From NCBI GenBank assembly GCA_020426575.1, contig JAGQPT010000429.1, positions 1-43,025 on the forward strand: a stretch of 43,025 nucleotides of DNA, read 5' to 3'. This stretch comes from Planctomycetales bacterium (GTDB lineage Bacteria > Planctomycetota > Planctomycetia > Pirellulales > JAEUIK01). Shown piece by piece: positions 2,059 through 31,174 of the stretch. A program made the position numbers and the translations under genes. How positions within the stretch are numbered: position 1 is the stretch's first letter; each line of letters starts with the position of its first letter. The notes under the pieces were generated by a model that was given only the letters and a program-made list of their open reading frames with translations, made no database searches and was not told where the DNA came from.

Positions 2059-3088
2059 CGACCGAGACCGGCTCCTTCTGGTCATGGGCGTGCTGGTCGT
2101 CGTCCGTTGCATTCCGCCGAACGCCACCGCTTGAATCGTCACCCACGCGTTCGGCGATCGAGAAGCCGTCGACTTCGCGGCTCTGTTGGGCCGTGATCAT
2201 CTCGGCAAGAAAGCCGATCGAGATCAACTGCCCGCCGAACAGCAGCGCACCCATCGAGTAGATCACCGCCGGCCGCTGGTGCAACGGCGTCAGCCCCCAC
2301 TCAGGCCGTAGTTGTGCGACCAGCCAATACACGCCGAGGTATACCAGTCCCAGGCTGCCCAAGCTGAATGAGATGAGGCCGATGGTGCCCAACAAGTGTT
2401 GGGGCCGCTGGCCGTAGCCGGTGAGGAACTTCACGGTGAGCAGATCGAGAAAGCCTTTGACGAGCCGGCGGACACCATACTTCGAGTGGCCGTACTTGCG
2501 CTCGCGGTGGCGGATGACGATCTCGTCGACCTTGAAACCCCGGGCGTCGGCCAACACTGGCACAAAACGGTGTAGTTCACCGTAGATGTGCACCTCGTCA
2601 AGGACTTCGCTGCGATAGCATTTCATTCCGCAGTTGTGGTCGTGCAACTTCACGCCCGTCAACCATCCAACCATCCAATTGAAGACCCGCGAGGGCAACA
2701 CCTTGTGCCAGGGATCGTGGCGAACTTTTTTCCAGCCGCTCACGACGTCGACGCCCGAGTCGATGGCCGCGAGAAAGTTGGGGAACTCGGCCGGATCGTC
2801 TTGCAGGTCCGCATCGAGTGTGATCACTCGATCACCGGTGGCGGCGTCGAAGCCGGCAACGAGTGCGGCCGCCTTGCCGAAGTTCCGGCGAAAACGAATG
2901 CCCCGCACCCGGGAGTCACGCTCGGCAAGCCGCCGAATCTTCTCCCATGATCCGTCATTCGAACCGTCATCGACGAAGATGATCTCGAGGTCGTAGCCGT
3001 GGGCCTCCGCCACCGCCGCGATTTCTTCGTGCAGCGGCACCAGGCTTTCCACCTCGTTGTAGACCGGGATGACCGCCGAGAGTTTCAT
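2042..3088 (-). CDS. Family 2 glycosyltransferase, dolichol-phosphate mannosyltransferase/ArnC type
   Basis: This 348-residue protein starts at MKLSAVIPVYNE; the open frame upstream is not protein-like. The GT-A fold is evident: IPVYNE at the N terminus, FVDDGSNDGS for nucleotide binding, and LDADLQDDP carrying the DxD-type metal site. Two C-terminal hydrophobic hairpins (about residues 240-270 and 285-315) anchor it in the membrane, as in the ArnC/GtrB/DPM1 group. Such enzymes transfer a sugar from a nucleotide donor to undecaprenyl phosphate on the cytoplasmic face. The tail after the last helix is short, polar and acidic. The gene lies 71 bases after the flippase-like gene and overlaps the GT39-like gene, so the three probably form one operon making and using a lipid-linked sugar. 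Confidence 0.88.
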   Translation of the reverse strand: MKLSAVIPVYNEVESLVPLHEEIAAVAEAHGYDLEIIFVDDGSNDGSWEKIRRLAERDSRVRGIRFRRNFGKAAALVAGFDAATGDRVITLDADLQDDPAEFPNFLAAIDSGVDVVSGWKKVRHDPWHKVLPSRVFNWMVGWLTGVKLHDHNCGMKCYRSEVLDEVHIYGELHRFVPVLADARGFKVDEIVIRHRERKYGHSKYGVRRLVKGFLDLLTVKFLTGYGQRPQHLLGTIGLISFSLGSLGLVYLGVYWLVAQLRPEWGLTPLHQRPAVIYSMGALLFGGQLISIGFLAEMITAQQSREVDGFSIAERVGDDSSGGVRRNATDDDQHAHDQKEPVSVDERNV

Positions 3089-3159
3089 GCAACTGATGTG
3101 ACGATTGAGAAGCGTGGAGCGCCGGGGAGCATCAGCGAACGGTAAATACTCGCACCCCA

Positions 3160-4161
3160 TCACGTTCGGGGTACGCCGCCCGTCGGTGTGCCGGGCTGGT
3201 CGACGCCACCGGCCGGCCGGCATACATATAGGATACTCGAAACGACCACCTCCGACACGAGCCAGACGATCCGCAGCAACACGGCGGCGACGATGGCCGG
3301 GCCGTCACCGATCTCGCCGGCCAGCAGTTTCATGATCACGATCTCGCGCACACCGGCCCCACCGGGTATCAATGAGAGGAACCCCGCCACGACCGAGAGT
3401 GTCACGGTCGCCAGGTAGCGCGGCCAATGGTTCACCGCGGCGAATGAGTCGACGCCCAGCGCGGCCAAAACGGCCACGAGGCTGGCGGTCATCAACAACC
3501 AGCCGATCGTGTTGGCCAACCAACCCAGGGCCATTGTGTCCCAGCCGAGCACGGCGAGTCGCTGTTCGGCCGCTTCGTCGCCGCGGGCCACACCGGCCAG
3601 ATGCGCCAGGCGGCGAAACAGCGGCGGCAGTGTCGGCAGCGTTGCCGCAATCATCAGTCCCACGGCGATCAACAACAGCGAAAGCCCGCGATCGCGGACG
3701 AAGATCGCGAGCATCGTGGCGGCCAGAAAGGCGCCGACCCCCATCATCGTTAGCGTCTCGTAAAACACGGCGGCCGCGGCGACCGCCACGCGTAGCTGTC
3801 GTCCTCGCAGAAGTCCGCTCCGCAGCACGATGACCATCGCCTTACCGGGAACGTATTTGCCCAGGTGGCCAATGAAGTGGGCACGCAGTGCCGACCACAT
3901 CGTCACCTGCTGCCCCAGTGTCAGCAGCACGCGATACCAGAACCAGGCGGCCGGCGCCGCGCCGGCGACGTAGATCACACCAGATACGACCAGCCAACCG
4001 TAGTCGATCTCGACCGGGTGTTGCCGCAGTTCGGCCAAGCCCCGGCTGAGCGTCCCGCGCACGAACCAGACGATCGCCGCAAAGACGGCCAGTTTCACCA
4101 CGACGGTCAGCCAACGACGCGCGCGGCTTTTCGTGGCGGCACTGGGCAGGCTGTCGGCCAT
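3160..4161 (-). CDS. UPF0104 / lysylphosphatidylglycerol-synthase-type transmembrane protein
   Basis: This 333-residue protein starts at MADSLPSAATK. It has about eight membrane helices, beginning with WLTVVVKLAVFAAIVWFV. The region with HFIGHLGKYVPGKA and, near the end, SLIPGGAGVREIVIMKLL are the conserved motifs of the UPF0104/LPG_synthase_TM superfamily (AglD, MprF membrane domain). No C-terminal aminoacyl-transfer domain is present, so it is not a full MprF. Members without it are often found beside polyprenyl-phosphate glycosyltransferases and are proposed flippases or membrane-glycolipid proteins. The downstream GT2 and GT39-like genes fit that picture. No clear Shine-Dalgarno sequence precedes the chosen ATG; the frame is open further upstream without protein character. 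Confidence 0.82.
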   Translation of the reverse strand: MADSLPSAATKSRARRWLTVVVKLAVFAAIVWFVRGTLSRGLAELRQHPVEIDYGWLVVSGVIYVAGAAPAAWFWYRVLLTLGQQVTMWSALRAHFIGHLGKYVPGKAMVIVLRSGLLRGRQLRVAVAAAAVFYETLTMMGVGAFLAATMLAIFVRDRGLSLLLIAVGLMIAATLPTLPPLFRRLAHLAGVARGDEAAEQRLAVLGWDTMALGWLANTIGWLLMTASLVAVLAALGVDSFAAVNHWPRYLATVTLSVVAGFLSLIPGGAGVREIVIMKLLAGEIGDGPAIVAAVLLRIVWLVSEVVVSSILYVCRPAGGVDQPGTPTGGVPRT

Positions 4162-4363
4162 AATGGCAAAAGCGCTCTGAACTGGACTGAAATAAAGCGA
4201 TTCCGCGGCAAGATCCAAGCCGCAACTGCGAACCATTGCTTCGTGGGAGTGGCCGCCGCCGAATCGCGCCACGAATCGAGACGGGATTGTCACGCGCGGC
4301 TGCCAACGACACAAGACGATTCACAATCCCCCCTGCATTCACCCACAGGACCGTCCGCACATC

Positions 4364-4372
4364 TGTTAGAAT
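4364..4372 (+). promoter_or_regulatory. Extended -10 promoter for the AI-2E family gene
   Basis: TGTTAGAAT at 4364-4372 matches an extended -10 element (TGn followed by TAGAAT). No good -35 hexamer lies 17-18 bases upstream, as is common for extended -10 promoters. It would give a leader of about 60 bases before the GTG at 4438. The 276-base divergent region 4162-4437 must also hold the promoter of the minus-strand glycan genes, which I could not place. Confidence 0.35.
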
Positions 4373-4437
4373 GCGCGGCGCCACGGCCCCGGACTTCCAG
4401 CGCCGTGGCGCCGAATATCCTTCCGCGGAGTTGTTTC

Positions 4438-6057
4438 GTGCAACGCATCGCCAGTTTTGTCGTCCTCGTCGCTCTCGTCTTGTTGATCACGTTCTTTTTT
4501 TTCCGCGTGATGGCGGTGTTCCTGTTGCCGATGTTCTTTGCGGCCATTCTGGTCGTGGTTTTTCGGCCGCTACACGTCCGTCTCGTAGAGAAGTGCCAAG
4601 GTCGCACGCGGCTGGCCGCCGGTCTTTCCACGTTGACGATACTGGCGATCGTGCTCGTCCCTTTGTTGTTGCTCACCGTTCGCGCCGGCATGGACGGCGC
4701 CGCGCTGGCAAAAAAGATCGGCCGGGAAGAAGTCGACAACACCATCGGGCGGTTGCGGACCCGGTTGGGGCTGGCCACGCCACCCAGAGAAGTGATTGAC
4801 GCCCTCGACCAGTTGGCAGGCGAGATCGAAAAGGCCCAAGCCACCTTGCAGAGCAACGACGCCCCACCGTCGGGCGATCAGCCCGCCGACGACCCGCTCT
4901 CGGTTGCCCGGTTCCATCTCGAACGGGCTGATCGTCATCTCGACGTCATCACGCGCCGGGTGGATTTGTATAACCGACAAGCGACGCAGGCCGAGGAATC
5001 TGGAGAACCCTGGAACAATCCCAACTGTATCAACGATGTTGTTGCGGCCGCCAGCAGCGTGGAATCGCTCACCGTTCAACTCGATGAACTCCGCGGGATG
5101 CTCTCAATCAAGGATGTCGACGATGCGGAAAAAACAAAGTTCCTCGACCGCTCGGAGCAGGCGCTCGACGAGGTCGCCAGCCTGCGTGACGACCTGCTCG
5201 GCGAAGTCCCGCTGCAGTGGCTCAAAGAGCGCACCAACATGGACGTCGGCGACCTGCAGGAATTGCTCTACCGCCTGGCGGCTCCCGGCATGGTCGTTTC
5301 GCGGGCTTCGCGTGTCGGCGGTGCGCTGGCCGACCTCGTGATTGGAATCGTCGTCACGGTGCTGGCGCTTTACTACTTCCTTGCCGACGGGCCGGCGATG
5401 GTCGAAACCGTCATGCGCCTGTCGCCTTTGGACGACCGCTACGAACAAGCGATGCTCACCGAGTTCAATCGCATCAGCCGCGCCGTGGTGGTCGCCACGT
5501 TGCTCTCGGCGGTGGTACAAGGCGTGATGGCGGGCATAGGGTACTATGTCGCTGGGCTCGGCGCCGTGTTTCTGCTCACGCTGCTGACGATGATGTTTGC
5601 GATGGTGCCGTTCGTCGGCGCGGCCTCGGTCTGGGGCTCCTGCTGCATCTATCTGCTGTTGATCGACAGACCCTGGGCCGCCGCGCTGCTGGCCGTGTAT
5701 GGCGTCAGCGTCGTCTCGATGCTCGACAACGTCATCAAGCCGATGGTGCTGCACGGCCAATCGAATCTGCACCCATTGCTAGCCCTGTTGAGCGTGCTCG
5801 GGGGGGCTAAAGCATTGGGACCAATCGGTATCCTGGTGGGGCCGATGGTCGTCGCCTTCATGCAGGCCCTGTTGAACATGCTCCAGGTTGAAATCACCGA
5901 ACTCGGCGACGGCGAGCCGGCCCTCCACGACGTCTCCGGCAACGAACGAACCTGGTCGACCAAAGATCTGACCACCGCGGGCCAAAAAAGCGATAGCTCG
6001 CCCGGCGCAGGCGAGAATAGCCGCGACAGCAAGGCGGCGGCACAACCGGCTGAGTAG
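4438..6057 (+). CDS. AI-2E/PerM family transporter with a large helical insert
   Basis: This 539-residue membrane protein starts at GTG 4438, with a good CGGAG ribosome site seven bases away; the frame is open upstream but runs antisense to the neighbouring gene. N-terminal helices (about residues 4-45 and 62-83) are followed by a long hydrophilic stretch, roughly residues 85-285, with predicted helical and coiled-coil character. The C-terminal membrane bundle begins at ADLVIGIVVTVLALYYFLADG. It includes the family segments around MFAMVPFVGAASVWG, DNVIKPMVLHG and LGPIGILVGPMV. The last 50 residues are polar and disordered. Family members are typically about 350 residues and have been linked to export of small molecules or to Na+/H+ exchange. 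The substrate here is unknown. Confidence 0.88.
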   Translation: MQRIASFVVLVALVLLITFFFFRVMAVFLLPMFFAAILVVVFRPLHVRLVEKCQGRTRLAAGLSTLTILAIVLVPLLLLTVRAGMDGAALAKKIGREEVDNTIGRLRTRLGLATPPREVIDALDQLAGEIEKAQATLQSNDAPPSGDQPADDPLSVARFHLERADRHLDVITRRVDLYNRQATQAEESGEPWNNPNCINDVVAAASSVESLTVQLDELRGMLSIKDVDDAEKTKFLDRSEQALDEVASLRDDLLGEVPLQWLKERTNMDVGDLQELLYRLAAPGMVVSRASRVGGALADLVIGIVVTVLALYYFLADGPAMVETVMRLSPLDDRYEQAMLTEFNRISRAVVVATLLSAVVQGVMAGIGYYVAGLGAVFLLTLLTMMFAMVPFVGAASVWGSCCIYLLLIDRPWAAALLAVYGVSVVSMLDNVIKPMVLHGQSNLHPLLALLSVLGGAKALGPIGILVGPMVVAFMQALLNMLQVEITELGDGEPALHDVSGNERTWSTKDLTTAGQKSDSSPGAGENSRDSKAAAQPAE

Positions 6058-7658: not shown

Positions 7659-10600
7659 TCAGGCGGCTTCGGCCTCGTCGGGTTCCAGGTCTGCCGCGTC
7701 GCTGCCTTCGCCTGCCTCATCGATCGCCGGGCTGCGGCGGTGCGAACGGCGACCGTTGGTCGAAGGCTCTTCGACGACTGTTTCCACAACGACGGTCGTC
7801 GGCTGGTAAATCTGCTCGACGACGACCCCCTCGCCCGTCCCCACGTAGCGCACGACCCGCTCCGTGAATTCGCCGGCGAACTCTTCGGCACCGCCCCACT
7901 GCAATCGTCGACGCACCAGCAAACGACGCGTGCCCGCCTCTTCCTCCTCGGCGACCTCGACGTCGGCAACAGGCTCCGGTTCCGGTTCCGGTTCGGGCGT
8001 CAGTGTCGGCTCCTCATCGACGACCAGTTCGTCGGCCGGATCAGTGATCATCACTTTCGGAGACTGTACGTCGGGGAGCTCGTTGACGCGATAAAAGTCG
8101 TCGTCGGAGGGCACGACCGGCTCGACGACGGGTGTAGGTTCGACCACTGGAGTTTCGATCACTTCGACCGGTTCAACGGGCACCGGCGGTTCGACAGGTG
8201 CCGGCTTCGGCGGCTCCGGTTTCACCTCGACGCGCCGTTTTGGTTTGGCCACGGCCGCCACTCGGCGCTCCTGCTCGCGGGTCGGCTCGACAATGCTGCC
8301 CGCGGCTGACGACGCCGGCAAGTCGAACACGTTCACCCCCAACGAGGCAAAAATCCCCCGGATGTGATCATGACAGGTCAACAGGATCACCTGGCGATGA
8401 TTACCGGCGAAGTCGCGCAGCAATCGGGCCGCCGCTCGTGAACGCCGGTCGTCGAAGTTCACTAACACGTCGTCGAGCACGACCGGCAGATCAACGCCGC
8501 GATCGACGTAATAATCGACCAAGGCCAACCGCAGGGCGAGGAACAACTGTTCGCGCGTGCCCCGACTGAGGGCTTCGACGTTCCAGGTGCGACCCTGGGC
8601 ATCGTCAGCGCGGAGGATGTCGTCGTCCAACGGGGTCCACACCCGTCGGTAACGTCCGTCCGTGAGCTGCGCAAAGTATTCACTCGCTCGGGCCAGCGTC
8701 ACTGGCTGCCGCTCGCGCTCATAACGATGGCGCACGCGGTCGAAGAGGTGGCCGACGACCGTCATCACCTTCCAACGATGTGCCTGCTGGCGCAGCTGGT
8801 ATTCAACCACTTGCAATTCGAGCTGCCGGCGCCCCGTTGCGCTGCTGCGCCCCAGTGCGTCGAGCTGCTCGACCAGTTTGCCGTGCGTCTGCCAGAGTTC
8901 CTTGAGCCGCTCGTCGGCCCGTTGTGACTTTTCACCAACGCGCTCCCAGTCGGCTTCGAGCACGTCATTGTCCTGCGACTTCAGCCGTGCCCGCACCTCC
9001 TTCTCGCTGACGCCTTCGCCAATCGTTGCCGAAAGCGTGCGGTCGATGTCGGAAAGCCGCTCATCGAGCTGCCGCCGCCGCTGGCAACGACGCACGAGCG
9101 TGCGGAAGGATTCCTCGTCGTCGGCGCCCACGTCGTGCAGCAACGAGCGAACCCGTCTCCGCAGCCGACGGCCCGCCTGATTCGCTCGCCGACGTTCGTT
9201 GGCCGAACGCGCGATCCGGGCGAGCGCTTCCTGCCGTTGCTCGTCGGCGTTTCGATGCCGTTCGAGCCGCTCGGAAAGCCGATCGAGGCAACGCAACGGT
9301 TCTTCGTCAAAACGCTCCATGTCGACCGCGTCACACACTTCGTGCACTCGCCGGGTGAACTCAGCCAATAGTTTTCGGCGAGCGTCGCGTTGTTCATACA
9401 GCCGGGCCAATTCCCCCCAGGCGTCTCCCTGACGCTGTCGTTGCGTTAAAAACCCCCGGAGGCGTTTAGGCGTGAGATCCGAAGGCAAGCCGTACAGTTC
9501 GAGCGCCGCAACCCACTCGTCGTGGATCTCACGCACCTGCTGACGGGCCATTTCCAGGTGCTTTTCGGCTGCGGTCGCCTCTTCGATCATGGCCTTGCGG
9601 CGCGCGTCGACGGGAACCAATTGTTCCAGTTCAGCCAACTCGCGCTCGGCTTCTTGCAGCCGCACTGTCAGCGGACCGCGCCCCCGAGGCAGTTGTGCGT
9701 CGAGTTGTTCCCGCTGTTCATCCGCCTGTCGCATCTGCAGGGTGACGATGTCGATCTGCTTCTGACAGTCTTCGAGCCGCAAACGGGCCGCTCGCTGCAT
9801 CCAGAGCATCGATCCGCCGGAGATGGCAACGGCCAGCACCCCCAAACCGGCGTGGGACCAGCCAAACGAAAGCAACTCGGTGAAACTCCCCAGGGTCCCG
9901 GCGAGAATCATTGCCGCGCCGCCGACAAACAGGCTGCCGAGCACGACTAGGGCCCACATCGGCAACAACTGGTGCTCAAGCGAGTCTTCGGTCTCGCGTT
10001 CCAGTTCGTCGCGCCGCTGTCCCAATTGGGTGAGGCGTTCATCAGCCTGCACCCGACGCCGCAATTGCGAAACACGGTTGCCCGCCCGTTCGACGGCTTC
10101 GCTCAGGTCGGTTTCATCACGGGCAAGCACCGCCTCGGTCACCTGCTCGTCGGCGCCGGCGGCTTCGCTGCGCATCTGCTCGGCTGCTTCACGGGCCTCG
10201 GTCAACCGCTCTCGGCGTTCGCGCCAACGCCGCGCCAACGGCTTCAGTGCCTTCCAGACCTCGCGGCTGTCAAAGTCGGCAAGAGCTCCCCGCACATCGA
10301 CTGAATCGTCCGAATTCTCGGCAAATTCGACCGGAATTTCAGCTCCGGCCGCCACGGCCCGATCCCGCAGCGTGCCAATTTCCTGGTCGAGCGTCTCGAC
10401 TTCTTGCTTCAATTCCGTGATCCAGGCACGCTGTTGATCGAGGGCAACGATCTGTCCACCCGCTTCGAGAAACGCCTGGCTGACGCCGAGCTGTTCCACG
10501 TGTTGTCTAGCGACATCCATCTCGTGAGCGCGGCGGTCGACGAGCGCCCGCAGCCGGCGGATACGGTGTTGCGACTGTTCGAGGCGTGCGATCTGTTCGT

Positions 10601-11444
10601 CGGAGATGTCGGGAACGTCGCCGAGCGACTTGAGTTCCAGCCGCACCTTGCGACGCTCTTCCCAGATCTCCCGCAGGCTCAGACAGGTTTCGATCAACCG
10701 CAACTCGGTACGCAGCGACCTGGCTCGCTTGTCGAGGGCCTCGATCTCCTGGTCCAATTTGTCGCGCTGCTGACAGAGGTCATAGTACTGCGACAACGAT
10801 TGCCCCGACGCCGAGAGTTCGCTGCTGAGCCGTCGCCGCTGATCGAGCAGCCGGGCCAGTGACGAGTTTTGATCGCCAATCGCGTATATCTGCCGCCGCG
10901 TGGCTTCGAGTTCATGGCGAATTTCGTGGAGCGGCCGGCCCTGGATGCCCGTGGAAAGCTCGTAGAGCAACCTGGCCGATTCGCTGTCGTCCAGGCAGGC
11001 CAACTGCTGCAATTCGCGAATGCCGATGGCGTACACGGCCGTGTAGGTCTGTTCGTCGATGTCGCGCAGCAGACGCGACAACGCCGCGGCGCCCTCGTCG
11101 GTCGTTGCCAGCGCCGTGGTCCGCCGTGCGTCGGGCCAGTCGATCGTCACCCGATCGTGGCCCGGTGCACCGGGAGCAAAGGCAAAATCACGCAGCAGGC
11201 GGTGTGCCGCGCCGTGATCGGTCAGTTCCAGCGCGCCGCCGGCTGCGTCGGCTCCCGTCGCCGTAAAGAACCGCTGCCGCCGATCACCGGTCACGCCGTA
11301 GAGCATCGACCGCACGAACTGCATCAGCGTCGACTTGCCGACTTCATTCGGGCCGTACACGACGTTGAGACCGTCGTCCAGACTTCGCATCTCGAGATCG
11401 CGCCAGACCCCAAACCGGTCGATCGAGATCTTCTTCAGCTTCAC
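7659..11444 (-). CDS. SbcC/YhaN-like SMC-type AAA ATPase with membrane hairpin and long tail
   Basis: This 1261-residue protein starts at GTG 11444, preceded by GAGGAGG at ideal spacing; the GTGA overlaps the stop of the upstream gene by four bases. The N-terminal ATPase lobe has Walker A GPNEVGKST (about residues 32-40). Two long coiled-coil arms follow, full of Arg, Glu, Gln and Leu. Between them, in place of a zinc hook, are two membrane helices at about 493-515 and 532-550, as in Bacillus YhaN. The C-terminal lobe has the signature region LSRGTREQLFLALRLAL and Walker B VVLDDVLVNFDD. A tail of about 219 residues follows, rich in Pro, Glu and Val. Partnered with the SbcD/YhaO-like protein, it probably works in DNA end processing or repair at the membrane. 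Confidence 0.88.
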   Translation of the reverse strand: MKLKKISIDRFGVWRDLEMRSLDDGLNVVYGPNEVGKSTLMQFVRSMLYGVTGDRRQRFFTATGADAAGGALELTDHGAAHRLLRDFAFAPGAPGHDRVTIDWPDARRTTALATTDEGAAALSRLLRDIDEQTYTAVYAIGIRELQQLACLDDSESARLLYELSTGIQGRPLHEIRHELEATRRQIYAIGDQNSSLARLLDQRRRLSSELSASGQSLSQYYDLCQQRDKLDQEIEALDKRARSLRTELRLIETCLSLREIWEERRKVRLELKSLGDVPDISDEQIARLEQSQHRIRRLRALVDRRAHEMDVARQHVEQLGVSQAFLEAGGQIVALDQQRAWITELKQEVETLDQEIGTLRDRAVAAGAEIPVEFAENSDDSVDVRGALADFDSREVWKALKPLARRWRERRERLTEAREAAEQMRSEAAGADEQVTEAVLARDETDLSEAVERAGNRVSQLRRRVQADERLTQLGQRRDELERETEDSLEHQLLPMWALVVLGSLFVGGAAMILAGTLGSFTELLSFGWSHAGLGVLAVAISGGSMLWMQRAARLRLEDCQKQIDIVTLQMRQADEQREQLDAQLPRGRGPLTVRLQEAERELAELEQLVPVDARRKAMIEEATAAEKHLEMARQQVREIHDEWVAALELYGLPSDLTPKRLRGFLTQRQRQGDAWGELARLYEQRDARRKLLAEFTRRVHEVCDAVDMERFDEEPLRCLDRLSERLERHRNADEQRQEALARIARSANERRRANQAGRRLRRRVRSLLHDVGADDEESFRTLVRRCQRRRQLDERLSDIDRTLSATIGEGVSEKEVRARLKSQDNDVLEADWERVGEKSQRADERLKELWQTHGKLVEQLDALGRSSATGRRQLELQVVEYQLRQQAHRWKVMTVVGHLFDRVRHRYERERQPVTLARASEYFAQLTDGRYRRVWTPLDDDILRADDAQGRTWNVEALSRGTREQLFLALRLALVDYYVDRGVDLPVVLDDVLVNFDDRRSRAAARLLRDFAGNHRQVILLTCHDHIRGIFASLGVNVFDLPASSAAGSIVEPTREQERRVAAVAKPKRRVEVKPEPPKPAPVEPPVPVEPVEVIETPVVEPTPVVEPVVPSDDDFYRVNELPDVQSPKVMITDPADELVVDEEPTLTPEPEPEPEPVADVEVAEEEEAGTRRLLVRRRLQWGGAEEFAGEFTERVVRYVGTGEGVVVEQIYQPTTVVVETVVEEPSTNGRRSHRRSPAIDEAGEGSDAADLEPDEAEAA

Positions 11445-12733
11445 GATTGGGCCTCCTCGGCCTCGAGCCAACTCGTCCCCAGCACGATCGCCTCATCGAG
11501 CAGCCGACGGCGTTCGTGGGCATCTTCCAGTCGCAAGAAACCACGCAGGTATTGTTCGTCGCTCAATTCGCGGACGGATGACGTCTCGCCCTCTACCTCA
11601 TCCGAGGACGTGACGTTGCCGGACGTATCGATCGCCGCCTCGATGCCGATCGGCAACGAACGGTCGCTCCGCAGCGTGTCGGCTTCACGGAGCATTTCGC
11701 CGCACAAATCGTCACGTTCACGCCAATGCGGCGGCAACTCGGCGGGCGTAACCACCTCGGCGGCCACGGTCCACGCCGCCGGCGACGTCACCGCAAGTCG
11801 TTGATTGAGGCGCTCGGCAAGTTCACGCAACCAGTCGGGCCGGCTCGCCGCGCCATAGAGCGGCAGTGGCACGTTTAATTGCCAGGTCACCGCCAGATCG
11901 ACTGCAGTGACGTCAGCGGCCAGTTGTCGCGCCCGTTCCGTGAGTTTTCGCTCCACGTCGTCGAGCGTATCCGCATCCGCCGCGTCGATCGTTTCGCTCC
12001 GCCATCGCAACGCGTCGGTCGGCACAAACCAAAGCCGCGACTGGTGCTCCTGGTCGACACTGACGATCGTCGCTCCGTGGGCATCGGTTTCCGACGGATC
12101 GAGCCCCTGATGCGAGCCGGCCACGTGAGCTGCGGTATGTTTCGAGGCAAACAGCGTGCGCCGTCGGTGCGAACCACCGAAGGCCCAGTAATCGACCCCC
12201 GAGTCTTCGGCCGCCATCCGTTCCAGGGAATTGATCGGGCGCGACCGCAACGCGACTGTGTACGTCTTATCCACGTCACCGCTTCGCGACACGGCTCGTT
12301 GAGAAACGACTCCGCTACGGTCAACCGCGGTCAGCCAGACCTGCGGAAGCTTGTCCGGCGTGGCGCTGCAGTGGCCGCTCTCTCCCGGCGTCAATCGCAC
12401 GACGGCGTCCGGCAACGCGACTTGTTCCGGCCACGACTCGTCGTCGGTGGTCCCCCAGTAGACCGAAATACCGCTTTCGGCCAGACGTTCCAACTGTTGT
12501 TGCAGGAAGAGCACCCCGCGAATGCCAGCAACCGTTGGATCGATGACATCGCCGGTCAAGACGACGAAATCAACTTCCTCGCGGAGGGCGATGTCGAAAA
12601 GCCTCTCGGCGGCGCGGTACGTACAGTCGACCAACAAGTCGGCTAATGCGTCGGCGGGCCGATCGACCCCCGAGGCAACCTGCCCTAGATGCAAGTCGCT
12701 GGCGTGGAGGAAGCGAAACGTGGGTTTCGGCAT
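11441..12733 (-). CDS. SbcD/YhaO-like metallophosphoesterase with degenerate active site
   Basis: This 430-residue protein starts at ATG 12733 behind a strong AAGGAGG site. It has the Mre11/SbcD calcineurin-like fold motifs in order: FLHASDLHLG (D13, H15) and VVLTGDVID (D62). At the place of GNHD it has WGTTDDES, so the metal-bridging Asn and the catalytic His are Thr-Thr. No equivalent of the middle His motif is visible in KTYTVALRSRP. The last motif, normally GHxH, reads DYWAFGGSHRR, keeping only H189. The family stretch around AGSHQGLDPSETDAHG is conserved, so the fold and subfamily assignment look sound. The C-terminal third probably binds the ATPase encoded next. Either this is a subfamily with different metal chemistry, or nuclease activity has been lost. 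Confidence 0.85.
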   Translation of the reverse strand: MPKPTFRFLHASDLHLGQVASGVDRPADALADLLVDCTYRAAERLFDIALREEVDFVVLTGDVIDPTVAGIRGVLFLQQQLERLAESGISVYWGTTDDESWPEQVALPDAVVRLTPGESGHCSATPDKLPQVWLTAVDRSGVVSQRAVSRSGDVDKTYTVALRSRPINSLERMAAEDSGVDYWAFGGSHRRRTLFASKHTAAHVAGSHQGLDPSETDAHGATIVSVDQEHQSRLWFVPTDALRWRSETIDAADADTLDDVERKLTERARQLAADVTAVDLAVTWQLNVPLPLYGAASRPDWLRELAERLNQRLAVTSPAAWTVAAEVVTPAELPPHWRERDDLCGEMLREADTLRSDRSLPIGIEAAIDTSGNVTSSDEVEGETSSVRELSDEQYLRGFLRLEDAHERRRLLDEAIVLGTSWLEAEEAQS

Positions 12734-12965: not shown

Positions 12966-15023
12966 TTACGTTGACTTCCGCTGATTCGCGGTCCGCGGTC
13001 GTGCGGCCGCATCTGGCCGCCCGCCCCCGGAACGCTTGAAGTTGTGCGGATTGTCGGCGCGGCCGGTCAATTCGAAGAGAAACCGACTCGGGATCGAAGG
13101 CTGACTCTTCCCCCACTTGCGCCGTGCCTGGGCCATCGTGAGCGTCAACCGCTCTTTGGCGCGCGTCACACCCACGTAGCAAAGCCGCCGCTCCTCCTCA
13201 ACGTTGTCGTCTTCGCCGACGCTACGCCGGTGCGGCAACAGGCCCTCCTCCATTCCGACCAGATATACCTGCGGAAATTCGAGCCCCTTGGCACTGTGCA
13301 AGGTCATCAGCACCACGGCGTTGCGGGCCAGGCTCGATTCCTTCTTCTGGTCGTCCTCGCGGCCGTCCAGGGCAATGTTGTTGAGAAAGCCGCCGATGCT
13401 CGGTTCAGCCGCCCGCTGTTCGTAGGCAGCCAACGCATTGACAACTTCCTCGACGGCCGCCCAGCGCGCTGCCGCCTCACTTGGCTTGGCGTATGTCCGC
13501 TCCAAATCGTTTCGATATCCGACGGACTCGATCATTTCGCCGACCACGTCGACGAGCGACTCGCCGACGTTGAGCATCGTGCGGTGGTGCGCGTGCAGAT
13601 CACGCAGTTGTTTGATGCCAGCCTGGGCGGCTGAAGGTAGCGACCCGATAACGTCATCCTGTTGCATGACGTCCCACAACGTCGACCGCTGTTGGACTGC
13701 GGCGGCCAACAGGCCCTCGACACTCGTTTGACCGATGCCACGCGGCGGCACGTTGATGATCCGCCGCAGCGCGACCTCGTCGCGCGGTTCGTCGATCATC
13801 CGCATCAACGCCAGCATGTCGCGAACCTCGCGCCGATCGTAGAACGACAACCCGCCGATCAGCACGTAGGGGAGCTTGGCCGCCCGCAATTCGCTTTCAA
13901 AGGCCCGAGGTTGCTCATTCGTGCGGAACAAGATGGCGAAATCTCGTGGCTGCGCAATCCGCTGATACAACTGCTGCTCGATCTCCGCGACCACTTGTCG
14001 TGCCTCGGCAACCTCGTCCGGGTACTGCAGGATGCGCGGACGCTCGCCGTCCTGAATCGACGCCCGCAAACGTTTGGGGTGCCGGTTGCCGTTATGAGCG
14101 ATCAACGTGTTGGCCATTTCGAGGATCGGCGCGCAAGAGCGATAATTCTCTTCGAGCCGCACGACTTTCGCTCCCGGCCAATCGCGGGTGAACCGGAGAA
14201 TATGGCTGACCTCGGCCCCCCGCCAGCCATAGATCGACTGATCGTCATCACCCACGACGCAGAGGTTGCGATGGCCGGCCGCTAGCGCGCGAACGATGGC
14301 GTATTGATTGGCGTTCGTGTCCTGATACTCGTCGATCAACACATGGTCGAAGCGGCCCGCTTCCTCGGCCCGCACGTCGGCGTGTTCGGCGAACAATTCC
14401 TGCGTGCAGAGCAACAAGTCGTCGAAATCGACGGCTCCATTGTTCTTCAGGGCCCGCTGATAGCGACGAAACGCGCTGGCGGCCAGGTGCTCCTTGTCGG
14501 ACGCCGCCTGGCCGGTGGCGTCCTCCGGTCGCACGCCCCGAGTTTTCCATTGGCTGATGATCGCCAGCAGGTCGCCCGGCCGCAGGCGTTCATTGGGGAC
14601 GCGGATTTCCCGCAAGACGGCTCGCGCCACGCTCTCCTGGTCGCCGCGATCATAAATGGCGAACTTGGCCGGGTATCCAAGCCGCTCGATGTGACGTCGC
14701 AGAATCCGCACGCAAAGGGCGTGGAAGGTAGAGATTTGCGGCTCGTCGCCCTCGCGCCGCCTGGCCCGCGACGGTTTCCCCTTGCGGCTGGCCGATTTGC
14801 CGCTATTCAACAGGGCCGTGGCCCGCTCACGCATCTCGACGGCGGCCTTGTTGGTGAACGTGACGGCGAGGATGCGCGCCGGGGACACGCCGTTACGGAT
14901 CAAATTGGCGATCCGGAACGTCACAACACGCGTCTTGCCGGTTCCGGCGCCGGCTAGCACCAGCAGAGGGCCCGAGAGGGTGTGAACCGCCTCGCGCTGA
15001 GCCGGGTTGAGCGTGTCGGCCAT
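12966..15023 (-). CDS. uvrD: UvrD/PcrA/Rep-type superfamily 1 DNA helicase
   Basis: This 685-residue protein starts at MADTLNPAQREAVH; the open frame beyond 15023 is arginine-rich noise. All SF1A motifs are present: Q-motif NPAQ, motif I AGAGTGKT (residues 24-31), Ia AVTFTNKAA, II DEYQDTN, III VVGDDDQSIYGWRGAE, IV ENYRS, V TLHSAKGLEFPQVYLVG and VI VGVTRAKERL. It is a 3'-5' ATP-driven translocase that unwinds DNA in repair and replication restart. It ends soon after motif VI with a basic, Gly-rich tail and is about the length of Rep, shorter than typical UvrD. PcrA, UvrD and Rep cannot be told apart here, so the symbol is nominal. It sits next to the SbcD/SbcC-like pair, a repair neighbourhood. 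Confidence 0.92.
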   Translation of the reverse strand: MADTLNPAQREAVHTLSGPLLVLAGAGTGKTRVVTFRIANLIRNGVSPARILAVTFTNKAAVEMRERATALLNSGKSASRKGKPSRARRREGDEPQISTFHALCVRILRRHIERLGYPAKFAIYDRGDQESVARAVLREIRVPNERLRPGDLLAIISQWKTRGVRPEDATGQAASDKEHLAASAFRRYQRALKNNGAVDFDDLLLCTQELFAEHADVRAEEAGRFDHVLIDEYQDTNANQYAIVRALAAGHRNLCVVGDDDQSIYGWRGAEVSHILRFTRDWPGAKVVRLEENYRSCAPILEMANTLIAHNGNRHPKRLRASIQDGERPRILQYPDEVAEARQVVAEIEQQLYQRIAQPRDFAILFRTNEQPRAFESELRAAKLPYVLIGGLSFYDRREVRDMLALMRMIDEPRDEVALRRIINVPPRGIGQTSVEGLLAAAVQQRSTLWDVMQQDDVIGSLPSAAQAGIKQLRDLHAHHRTMLNVGESLVDVVGEMIESVGYRNDLERTYAKPSEAAARWAAVEEVVNALAAYEQRAAEPSIGGFLNNIALDGREDDQKKESSLARNAVVLMTLHSAKGLEFPQVYLVGMEEGLLPHRRSVGEDDNVEEERRLCYVGVTRAKERLTLTMAQARRKWGKSQPSIPSRFLFELTGRADNPHNFKRSGGGRPDAAARPRTANQRKST

Positions 15024-27881: not shown

Positions 27882-28838
27882 ATGGTTGAATCAGCTATAC
27901 CGGTCACTCATTCTGAGGTGCTGCTGCCTCTGTTCGGAGCGCGGGATCAACACCTGCGAAAAATCCGTCAGGCGCTGGGCGTGGAGATCTCGGCCAGCGA
28001 CGGCGTGATCCGCGTGCACGGGGATCCAGCGGCCGTCACCGTCGCCACCGAGGTGCTCGAACGCCTCTGCACGATCGTCCGCCGCCAGGGCAGTCTTGCC
28101 GAGGAGGAGGTCACCCGCGCCATCGATCAGGTCCGCGGAAAGAGTGGCGCAGGCGACGTTCCAGCCATCGACGTCATGGCCGCGGGAAAGACGGTCCGCC
28201 CCCGTACCCCCGGCCAGGAACGCTACGTCGAAGCGATCCGCAAGCACGACATTGTCTTCGGTGTCGGCCCAGCCGGTACGGGAAAGACGTACCTGGCCGT
28301 CGCCATGGCCGTCTCGGCACTGCGCAATCAACAGATCCGCAAAATCGTGCTGGTGCGACCGGCGGTCGAAGCCGGGGAAAGCCTCGGCTATCTGCCCGGC
28401 GACCTCCAGGCCAAGATCCATCCCTATCTCAGGCCGCTGCTCGACGCGCTCCACGAGATGATCGACTACGATCAATTCAAACGCTATACGGAACAGGACC
28501 TCATCGAGATCATTCCGCTGGCGTACATGCGCGGCCGCACGCTCAACGAGGCCTTCATCATCCTCGACGAGGCACAAAACACCACGATTCCTCAGATGAA
28601 AATGTTCCTCACGCGAATGGGCCGAAATTCCAAGATCGTCGTCTCTGGCGATACCACTCAGGCCGACCTGCCGTCGCGAACGACCAGCGGGCTCACCGAT
28701 GCCGTCGAACGGTTGGGCCACCTCAATGGCTTCGCCGTCTCAAAGCTCAGCAGCGCAGACATCGTGCGACACCCGATGGTGCAGCAGATTGTCCGCGCTT
28801 ATGAACAAGAGCCCAAGAAAAAACGCGAACGACGCTAG
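27882..28838 (+). CDS. phoH: PhoH family protein (YbeZ-type ATPase)
   Basis: This 318-residue protein starts at ATG 27882 (MVESAIPVTHSEV), and GTG 27867 is an in-frame alternative. A KH-like N-terminal domain (LLPLFGARDQHLRKIRQALG) precedes the PhoH ATPase: Walker A GVGPAGTGKTYLA (about residues 127-139), LVRPAVEAGESLGYLPG, IPLAYMRGRTLNEAFIILDEAQN with Walker B near 226, and FLTRMGRNSKIVVSGD. PhoH/YbeZ is a putative RNA helicase or nuclease partner of YbeY in rRNA maturation, and ybeY is two genes downstream. First gene of the phoH-pgpH-ybeY-CBS cluster. Confidence 0.94.
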   Translation: MVESAIPVTHSEVLLPLFGARDQHLRKIRQALGVEISASDGVIRVHGDPAAVTVATEVLERLCTIVRRQGSLAEEEVTRAIDQVRGKSGAGDVPAIDVMAAGKTVRPRTPGQERYVEAIRKHDIVFGVGPAGTGKTYLAVAMAVSALRNQQIRKIVLVRPAVEAGESLGYLPGDLQAKIHPYLRPLLDALHEMIDYDQFKRYTEQDLIEIIPLAYMRGRTLNEAFIILDEAQNTTIPQMKMFLTRMGRNSKIVVSGDTTQADLPSRTTSGLTDAVERLGHLNGFAVSKLSSADIVRHPMVQQIVRAYEQEPKKKRERR

Positions 28839-28915
28839 ATGGTTCGGGGACGCCCCCCGGTCGGCAAATTCAACCACGTACGGACAGACGAGCCCATCCG
28901 ACACCGAGCGATCCG

Positions 28916-31174
28916 ATGCCCAGTCCCACGGCCCCCAAAAAGAAACCCGGCACGCGCGTGACGTCGCTCGAAATGCCGCCGAACTATTGGCAGCGTTTCC
29001 TGCGATCGCTGATGAACACCGAGGCGCTTAAGCGCATCGGTTTGGCATGGGTGGCGGCCGTGGCGATCTGGCTGATTGTCGGCGGTTCGCGTCCTCCGCT
29101 GGGATACCGGCTCGAATACGCTCCACCCCGCGACGTCGTGTCGCGGATCGAGTACAAGGAAAGCGATCCCGAGGCGACGGCCGAGGCGCGGCGGCAGGCT
29201 CGCCGCCAGGTGCGGTTCATTTACACGAACGATCCCGAACCGCTCACACAACTGCGAGCCGCCCTGCAGCGCCGCGTGGTGGAGTTGACCAGTGCGGCCG
29301 TCCCCGCCGATGCCCAGGCGGAATGGGCCGAGTTCATGCCGCAGGATCCGAAGACCCCGTTCACCGCGGACGAATCGGCGGCGGCGTACAAGCGGTTTCG
29401 CGACGCACTCGCCACCCCCGAGGCGATCGAGCGCTTCAATGCCGCGCTGGCCAAGGCCTTCGAACCATTGGAGCACCACGGGCTGCTCGACAAGCTGCCC
29501 CAGGAGCCGAACGAAGGTGACCAGGAGGTGATCTACGTGCATCGCGTCGGCGTTCCAGACCAACGCGAACTGGTCAACGTCACCGACGTGATCATCGGCG
29601 ACGACAGTCGATTTGAAAAACGATTGGCCGACGTGCTGGTGACACCGGATATTGCCGTGCCGGCAGCCCGCTGGTTGCGCTCCCGGCTGCCCAACACGTT
29701 GACGATCGACGCCGACGCCACGCGACGCGCCCAGGTCGAAGCCGAAGAGGGGGTCGAACAACAATTCAAGACGATTCCAGCCGGCGACTTGCTGGCGCCG
29801 TTCGGGCACCCCCTGACCGCTGAGCGACTCGATCAGCTTGTCAAGGAACAGCGAGCGTTTGTAGCGTCAATCCCGACGTACCAGTGGTTGGCTCGTTCGG
29901 TGTTGATGTTCTGCGGCATCGTCGGGCTATTTGTGCTTTGTGCATATTTCATCTGGCGGCGGGACCACCGTGTCATTGATTCGATGCAGCGGCTCAGCGT
30001 CCTGCTCGTGTTCGTGGTGTTGACCGTCGCCGCTGCCCGCTGGGCGTATTTCGACCCCTGGCAAGCCGAACTGCTGCCACTCGTGTTCTTCGGCGTCACG
30101 ACCGCCATCGCGTACCGACAAGGAATCGCGCTGCTGCTCTCGGCTGCAATCACGCTGGTCTTGTCGTTCGCCCTCGGTATGCGTCTGGACGAATGGGTGA
30201 TCGTGATGGGTACGCTGGCCACGGCGATCCTCTTTGTCAGCGACATCCGCAGCCGCAGCAAGCTCATTAAGGTGGGACTGGTCGCGGCGGTGTTTGCCGC
30301 TCTGACCACTTTCGGCGTCGCCGTGCTCAAAGAACAGCCGTTCACATCGGCGCTTTTGACGTCGGCCTCGCGTAATGCCGCCTGGACCCTGGCGGCGAGT
30401 TTCCTCGTCACGGGGCTGCTGCCCGTGATCGAAAAAGTATTCAGCGTGCTCACGCAAATCAGTCTGCTGGAATTGGGCGACGTCGCCCACCCGCTGCTGC
30501 AGGAACTCGTTCGCCGCGCACCGGGCACGTACAACCACTCGATCAACGTCGCCTCGATCGCCGAAGCCGCCGCCCAAAGCATCGGTGCTAATGGGCTGCT
30601 CGTTCGCGTCGGTGCCTATTTCCACGACATCGGCAAGATTCTCAAGCCGGGCTATTTCGTGGAAAACCAGGTTGGCAACGTCAACCGGCACGAATCGCTC
30701 ATGCCGGCGATGAGCACATTGATCATCATCGCCCACATCAAGGACGGGGCGGACCTGGCCCGCCAGCATCATCTGCCCCGACCGATCGTCGACCTGATCG
30801 AACAACACCACGGCACGACGCTCGTCGAATACTTTTACCAGCTTGCCAGCCAGCAGTCGCAGTCGGCCGGTGCCGGCGACAAGGTCGAAGAAAGCACCTA
30901 CCGCTATCCGGGCCCCAAACCGCAAACCAAGGAAGCCGGCGTGCTCATGTTGGCCGACGCCGTCGAAGGCGCCAGCCGCACCCTGGTCGAGCCGACGCCC
31001 GCCCGCATCGAGAGTCTCGTCGAGAGCATCGGCATGAAACGCCTGTTGGACGGCCAATTCGACGAATGTGGCCTCAGTCTGCGAGAATTGCGTACGATAC
31101 AGGACAGTGTGATCAAGTCGCTCACGGCGATTTATCATGCGCGGGTCAAGTACCCCGAGCCCCAGACCGCCTGA
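28916..31174 (+). CDS. pgpH: 7TM-HD phosphodiesterase (PgpH-type, cyclic di-AMP)
   Basis: This 752-residue membrane enzyme has one helix at about residues 42-58 (IGLAWVAAVAIWLIVGG), then a large extracytoplasmic domain to about 325. Seven membrane helices follow (about 330-510) and then a cytoplasmic HD domain. The HD site is intact: APGTYNHSINVASIAEAAA, AYFHDIGK (H570, D571), NVNRHESL, IIIAHIKDG, LIEQHHGTTLVEYFY and LMLADAVEGASR. PgpH in Listeria and YqfF in Bacillus hydrolyse c-di-AMP to pApA through this domain. The gene order phoH-pgpH-ybeY matches Firmicutes, which supports the assignment. It implies c-di-AMP signalling in this organism. Confidence 0.93.
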   Translation: MPSPTAPKKKPGTRVTSLEMPPNYWQRFLRSLMNTEALKRIGLAWVAAVAIWLIVGGSRPPLGYRLEYAPPRDVVSRIEYKESDPEATAEARRQARRQVRFIYTNDPEPLTQLRAALQRRVVELTSAAVPADAQAEWAEFMPQDPKTPFTADESAAAYKRFRDALATPEAIERFNAALAKAFEPLEHHGLLDKLPQEPNEGDQEVIYVHRVGVPDQRELVNVTDVIIGDDSRFEKRLADVLVTPDIAVPAARWLRSRLPNTLTIDADATRRAQVEAEEGVEQQFKTIPAGDLLAPFGHPLTAERLDQLVKEQRAFVASIPTYQWLARSVLMFCGIVGLFVLCAYFIWRRDHRVIDSMQRLSVLLVFVVLTVAAARWAYFDPWQAELLPLVFFGVTTAIAYRQGIALLLSAAITLVLSFALGMRLDEWVIVMGTLATAILFVSDIRSRSKLIKVGLVAAVFAALTTFGVAVLKEQPFTSALLTSASRNAAWTLAASFLVTGLLPVIEKVFSVLTQISLLELGDVAHPLLQELVRRAPGTYNHSINVASIAEAAAQSIGANGLLVRVGAYFHDIGKILKPGYFVENQVGNVNRHESLMPAMSTLIIIAHIKDGADLARQHHLPRPIVDLIEQHHGTTLVEYFYQLASQQSQSAGAGDKVEESTYRYPGPKPQTKEAGVLMLADAVEGASRTLVEPTPARIESLVESIGMKRLLDGQFDECGLSLRELRTIQDSVIKSLTAIYHARVKYPEPQTA

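Follow-up and report, generated by a model that had tools for sequence, protein, structure and literature searches.

The window, by which we mean the whole 43,025-nucleotide stretch of DNA that was analysed, carries two adjoining genes on its minus strand. The first of these (11441-12733), an open reading frame recovered exactly where the original prediction had placed it, has an ATG start preceded by AAGGAGG and encodes a 430-residue protein of the SbcD/Mre11/YhaO fold with a degraded active site, hereafter the pseudo-nuclease. Its stop codon overlaps, as GTGA, the most likely start (GTG at 11444) of a gene on the same strand (7659-11444) for a 1261-residue Rad50/YhaN-like ATPase assigned by Pfam to AAA_27; the arrangement, with a GAGGAGG ahead of the overlap, points to translational coupling of the two genes. 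The ATPase has an intact Walker A (GPNEVGKS, 11331-11354, minus strand), and its ABC signature (LSRGTREQ), Walker B (VVLDDVLVNFD) and H-loop (LLTCHDH) are likewise intact (8364-8570, minus strand). With an ABC/SMC-like ATPase next door that retains its Walker A, signature and Walker B motifs, the pair has the gene arrangement of an MR-type two-subunit complex. The CxxC zinc hook that characterizes Rad50 and SbcC was not seen in the ATPase sequence, and near the middle of the coiled coil there are instead two hydrophobic segments (9795-9968, minus strand; Kyte-Doolittle only) that form a probable membrane hairpin. The tail that follows the H-loop (7659-8300, minus strand) is long, acidic and rich in Pro, Glu and Val.

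Sequence profiles cover just residues 1 to about 70-90 of the pseudo-nuclease. The PF00149 match (28.4 bits, cut-off 21.5) places it in the calcineurin-like phosphoesterase superfamily, while the scores against the SbcD models TIGR00619 (23.8 bits) and NF041754 (12.3 bits) lie below their cut-offs of 77.65 and 750; a sequence search of the PDB aligned with no more of Mre11 than its first 80 residues. An AlphaFold2 model computed from 49 clade members had a pLDDT of 87.5 and a pTM of 0.83, and the best 50 Foldseek matches in the PDB were all Mre11/SbcD entries, including Mre11-Rad50 and SbcCD head complexes, with E values of 1e-14 (to Mre11-Rad50) to 1e-10. We are therefore confident that the model has the Mre11/SbcD fold, as had been proposed from the sequence. 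Because whole-chain TM-scores against Mre11/SbcD were moderate (0.38-0.66) and rmsd values over long alignments were large, the domain arrangement probably differs from that of the solved structures.

Numbered as in P. furiosus Mre11, the eight metal-binding or catalytic residues are D8, H10, D49, N84, H85, H173, H206 and H208. The set of seven metal ligands is the one given for PolD DP1 and stated to be conserved with Mre11, and two-metal catalysis in the superfamily makes use of the Asn, the proton-donor His and the first His of GHxH (PMC4996933). An active Mre11, SbcD or YhaO carries all seven ligands plus the catalytic His; in the alignment, the window copy reads DHDTTSGH against the canonical DHDNHHHH and so retains four of the eight, namely D13, H15, D62 and H189 (D8, H10, D49 and H208). 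All motifs lie on the minus strand. Motif I, D13-L-H15 (12689-12697), and motif II, G61-D62 (12545-12553), are retained. Motif III is YWGTTD (12443-12460) in place of GNHD, with Thr95 and Thr96 at N84 and H85, and motif IV is VALRS (12242-12256), with Ser164 at H173. In motif V, GGSH (12167-12178) replaces GHxH: the first His is Gly187 and the second is kept as His189. Downstream lies the segment AHVAGSHQG (12104-12130), which includes His203. The original prediction was thus accurate in finding D13, H15 and D62 intact, GNHD lost within WGTTDDES and the His of the middle motif missing; it slightly overstated the loss of GHxH, from which only the first His has gone. Compared with neighbouring copies, that of the window is further derived: it has Ser at H173 and has lost R211 of the QGR motif.

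This loss of active-site residues is, judging from the alignments, general to a clade rather than a local mutation of the window copy. An alignment of all 43 rows gave no conserved stretch, and the motifs were resolved in an alignment of 11 rows. Among 175 aligned homologues, 48 had all eight residues, none had seven, one had six and 126 had five or fewer; as these homologues came from search hits and chosen regions, the counts show a contrast and not abundances. In 103 copies from Pirellulales, H85 was found in none, N84 in two and H206 in none (Gly in 97), and this sharing of losses makes the motif loss more than chance. The remaining positions were kept to varying extents: D8 in 95 copies, H10 in 86, D49 in 81, H208 in 79 and H173 in 53. 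It had been suggested that orthologues be checked for conservation of the Thr-Thr and the Gly. Gly187 is conserved to the same degree as the best structural columns, and the Thr-Thr is not conserved, with R, E, P, A, G and others occurring at the Asn column. W93 of motif III is invariant (103/103), and together with the conservation of Gly187 this indicates that the present state is under constraint and is more than simple decay.

The order concerned is Pirellulales, going by the named loci (Lacipirellula, Bythopirellula and many MAGs). The window protein found a match in 51 of the 58 genomes of the order; leaving out one genome (G010) whose matches were of canonical type only, and adding four (family f7) in which the ATPase adjoins a highly diverged subunit that the search had missed, the degenerate type is present in about 54 of 58. 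Within the same 58, neither subunit was found in G034 and G055, and G003 (82% complete) yielded an ATPase fragment only. A second group or family of the same class (f21) has the degenerate type as well, and no match was found in members of a third group (f23) or in much of the remaining phylum, among the unmatched genomes listed. Nearly all active-site residues are gone from the f21 (20 copies) and f7 (4 copies) subunits. Those of f7, recognised through their ATPase neighbour, have a motif I resembling FAFDPxIDRP and lie at 2917-4302 (plus strand) in L186, 6684-8165 (minus) in L187, 6449-7681 (minus) in L188 and 3795-5153 (minus) in L189. We found no published description of this clade in a literature search that covered few subscription journals.

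The pairing with an SMC-type ATPase, which the original prediction took to be kept, was seen in nearly every locus checked. The ATPase adjoined the degenerate subunit in 22 of 22 loci of one survey and in nearly all loci from named genomes, the exceptions lying at the end of the available sequence, and it was adjacent to the four highly diverged f7 copies as well. Walker A, signature, Walker B and H-loop are kept across the degenerate partners with few variants, and the DD of Walker B is as in canonical partners. A central segment with a 19-residue hydropathy of at least 1.58 was present in 39 of 42 degenerate partners; by the same measure canonical partners fall into two groups, a main type with all values below 1.5 and a hairpin type above 2.3. 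Judged by hydropathy, the hairpin is probably a membrane anchor for the coiled coil. In a subgroup of f21 (L108, L110 and L210), ATPases without the central hydrophobic hairpin accompany degenerate nuclease-like subunits.

Some cells have both types. Of the 58 relatives, 14 have an intact YhaO-type copy, which scores 570-660 bits against the canonical profile, and 13 of these 14 also have the degenerate type; where the surroundings could be read, each type, intact or degenerate, had its own ATPase close by, and at some loci the ATPase lay outside the available sequence or scored too low. Neither an intact YhaO nor SbcD was found in the window genome, an absence that is provisional because the assembly is 90% complete and in 610 contigs. 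In a tree of the nuclease subunits computed without the ligand columns, a single branch parts intact from degenerate copies (SH-aLRT 99), and a tree of the ATPase heads has the same split, also with a support of 99. The ATPases of the degenerate clade are nearest to hairpin ATPases that accompany intact nucleases in other parts of the phylum (L120, L190, L196, L198 and L200, then L119). These were quick trees, with weak inner support (and so low resolution within the degenerate clade) and some long branches flagged; the simplest reading of them is that the degenerate type had one origin.

We favor the possibility that the window protein is an inactive SbcD/Mre11/YhaO paralogue which partners its own Rad50/YhaN-type ATPase as a non-cutting, ATP-dependent DNA clamp or tether, and we consider this probable. 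The original prediction had raised the pseudo-nuclease reading, and the order-wide conserved loss, the lack of a replacement His or Asn and the strong coding constraint all speak for it. Lacking the Asn, the proton donor and the second metal, the window clade is very unlikely to cut DNA, and we infer that it has no nuclease activity and supplies the non-cutting subunit of an MR-type complex. A plausible scenario is that the Mre11-fold subunits would form a dimer seated on the ATPase heads, and that the complex, depending on ATP, would clamp DNA duplexes or ends that it is unable to cut. The hydrophobic hairpin of the ATPase would fix the coiled coil in the membrane, so that the complex is probably membrane-tethered, and where it meets DNA ends, blocks or stalled forks it could provide a tether, a sensor or a loading platform, leaving cutting or unwinding to other enzymes such as the adjacent UvrD-type helicase. 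The DNA role in this scenario is extrapolated from relatives. There is precedent for the separation of activities that it entails. The catalytic-His mutant of E. coli SbcCD, H84Q, is nuclease-deficient with an ATPase activity only about 15% lower (PMC6265447); about 85% of the ATPase is kept, so the ATPase does not have to suffer when cutting is lost. Furthermore, the B-subunits of eukaryotic DNA polymerases have lost all catalytic residues of DP1 and are read as scaffolds (PMC4996933).

The main competing idea is that the protein is an enzyme of altered chemistry, in which a one-metal centre (D13, H15, D62 and H189) hydrolyses some phosphoester or nucleotide or in which the second site has been rebuilt with new residues, for instance His203 or His219. 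In the superfamily, the ligands of the first metal are D8, H10, D49 and H208, and those of the second are D49, N84, H173 and H206. A complete first-metal site is present in 72 of the 103 Pirellulales copies, that of the window included, and a complete second-metal site in none. The first-metal residues also tend to disappear together: D49 and H208 are jointly present or jointly absent in 97 of the 103 copies, and in a branch-placement test 8 of their 12 losses each fell on the same branches (1.6 expected; p about 0.0003). H10 losses join those of D49 and H208 (5 shared with each; p about 0.003), and H173 shares no losses with D49 or H208. The test used parsimony losses; it was chosen after the co-occurrence table had been viewed, which makes the p-values exploratory. 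Ligand co-loss in the same direction was seen among independent pairs on well-supported branches, in numbers too small for significance. Since D49, H208 and H10 are retained and lost together, these data suggest that many copies still bind one metal, whose site other copies have lost as a unit. The window copy may hold one metal at its half-site for structural reasons, and the retained, co-lost half-site leaves room for residual hydrolysis or one-metal chemistry. Also in favor of this idea is the enrichment of His203 (12125-12127), found in 74% of Pirellulales copies, 13 of 20 copies of the sister family and 4 of 48 intact homologues (8%), and of His219 (12077-12079), in 69% of Pirellulales copies versus 2% of intact homologues. 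However, as rebuilt metal ligands these two candidates were provisionally rejected: neither co-varies with retention of the half-site (Fisher p 1.0 and 0.35), and His203 is retained even in copies without it. Nor can the half-site be essential to the common role, because the sister family (f21) and f7 keep the gene pair with no copy having a complete first-metal site. Because all or nearly all copies lack the residues that two-metal catalysis uses (PMC4996933), namely the Asn, the first His of GHxH and the proton-donor His, we consider an altered-chemistry enzyme unlikely, and the altered metal chemistry that had been offered as a second option holds in the limited sense of a half-site confined to part of the clade.

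We see still less reason to suppose that the motifs were misaligned and that the true ligands lie elsewhere in the protein, in a site that is intact and has gone unrecognised. Identity to solved Mre11 proteins is admittedly low (12-18%), but the motifs are fixed by a clade-wide alignment that includes intact paralogues, with the YWALG and QGR flanks common to both, and beside the lost positions this alignment has no other column at which the clade conserves an Asn or a His; misalignment is thus a slim prospect. Least credible of all is that the gene is decaying, or has recently become a pseudogene, in a single fragmented genome. The number of contigs in the assembly and the derived state of the window copy would fit such decay, yet the open frame, the ribosome sites and the GTGA coupling are all intact and the same loss recurs across the relatives of the order and the loci of named genomes. 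Moreover, the dN/dS of the pseudo-nuclease gene, in pairs with measurable dS, is 0.02-0.30, and therefore the protein is under constraint (purifying selection); close relatives show no frameshifts or dN/dS near 1.

The known systems closest to the non-cutting clamp that we propose include the canonical YhaO-YhaN pair, which occurs intact in this phylum and in some of the same genomes. It shares the fold, the ABC motifs and the order of the genes, in which the nuclease subunit precedes an AAA_27 ATPase, and some canonical members in the phylum share the central hydrophobic hairpin; it differs in that canonical copies have 8/8 active-site residues, against five or fewer in the window clade (six in one copy), which forms a separate branch for both subunits. 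SbcCD/Mre11-Rad50 likewise has the Mre11 fold and a Rad50-like coiled-coil ATPase in common with the window pair, which departs from it in the absence of the second-metal site, the catalytic His and a visible zinc hook. The eukaryotic polymerase B-subunits, too, are DNA-machine subunits of Mre11-like phosphoesterase fold (PMC4996933), but with a polymerase partner, an OB domain and a eukaryotic distribution they provide an analogy and not a member of the same family.

In Mre11-Rad50, the cutting role is hard to separate from the gripping and signalling roles. Evolution appears to have parted them across a large bacterial group, and some of these cells also contain an intact sister copy as a built-in control, so that the role of MR-type complexes apart from nuclease activity becomes open to direct tests. 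We would also caution against annotating genes of the degenerate clade as exonucleases. A broader and more tentative model, which we rate at somewhat under even chances when taken as one joint claim, is that an MR-type lineage of Planctomycetia, spanning two orders or families, became an ATP-driven membrane DNA clamp in which the second site was lost once, when the lineage arose, and the one-metal site several times thereafter, each time as a unit, with the ATPase staying constrained.

With regard to the surroundings of the pair, a UvrD/Rep/PcrA-type helicase gene (12966-15023, minus strand; Pfam, 291 bits) lies directly upstream of the pseudo-nuclease gene. Of 60 degenerate Pirellulales loci for which the upstream sequence was long enough, 11 have a UvrD-type helicase on the same strand within 2.3 kb upstream, as against 0 of 40 canonical YhaO loci, and it is possible that the helicase is a functional neighbour of the pair. 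Clustering of neighbours gave no generally conserved third gene, and several clusters resembled frames antisense to the pair. A role in anti-phage defence (Lamassu, Gabija and others) was considered and set aside, there being no specific two-gene match in PADLOC and the pair being near-universal in the order; no PADLOC model matched the pseudo-nuclease, and the best for the ATPase was LmuB at 33 bits, over the first 50 residues only (a generic ATPase head). Elsewhere in the window, a gene at 28805-31171 (plus strand) encodes a 7TMR-HD family membrane protein with an HD hydrolase domain (Pfam PF07698 and PF01966).
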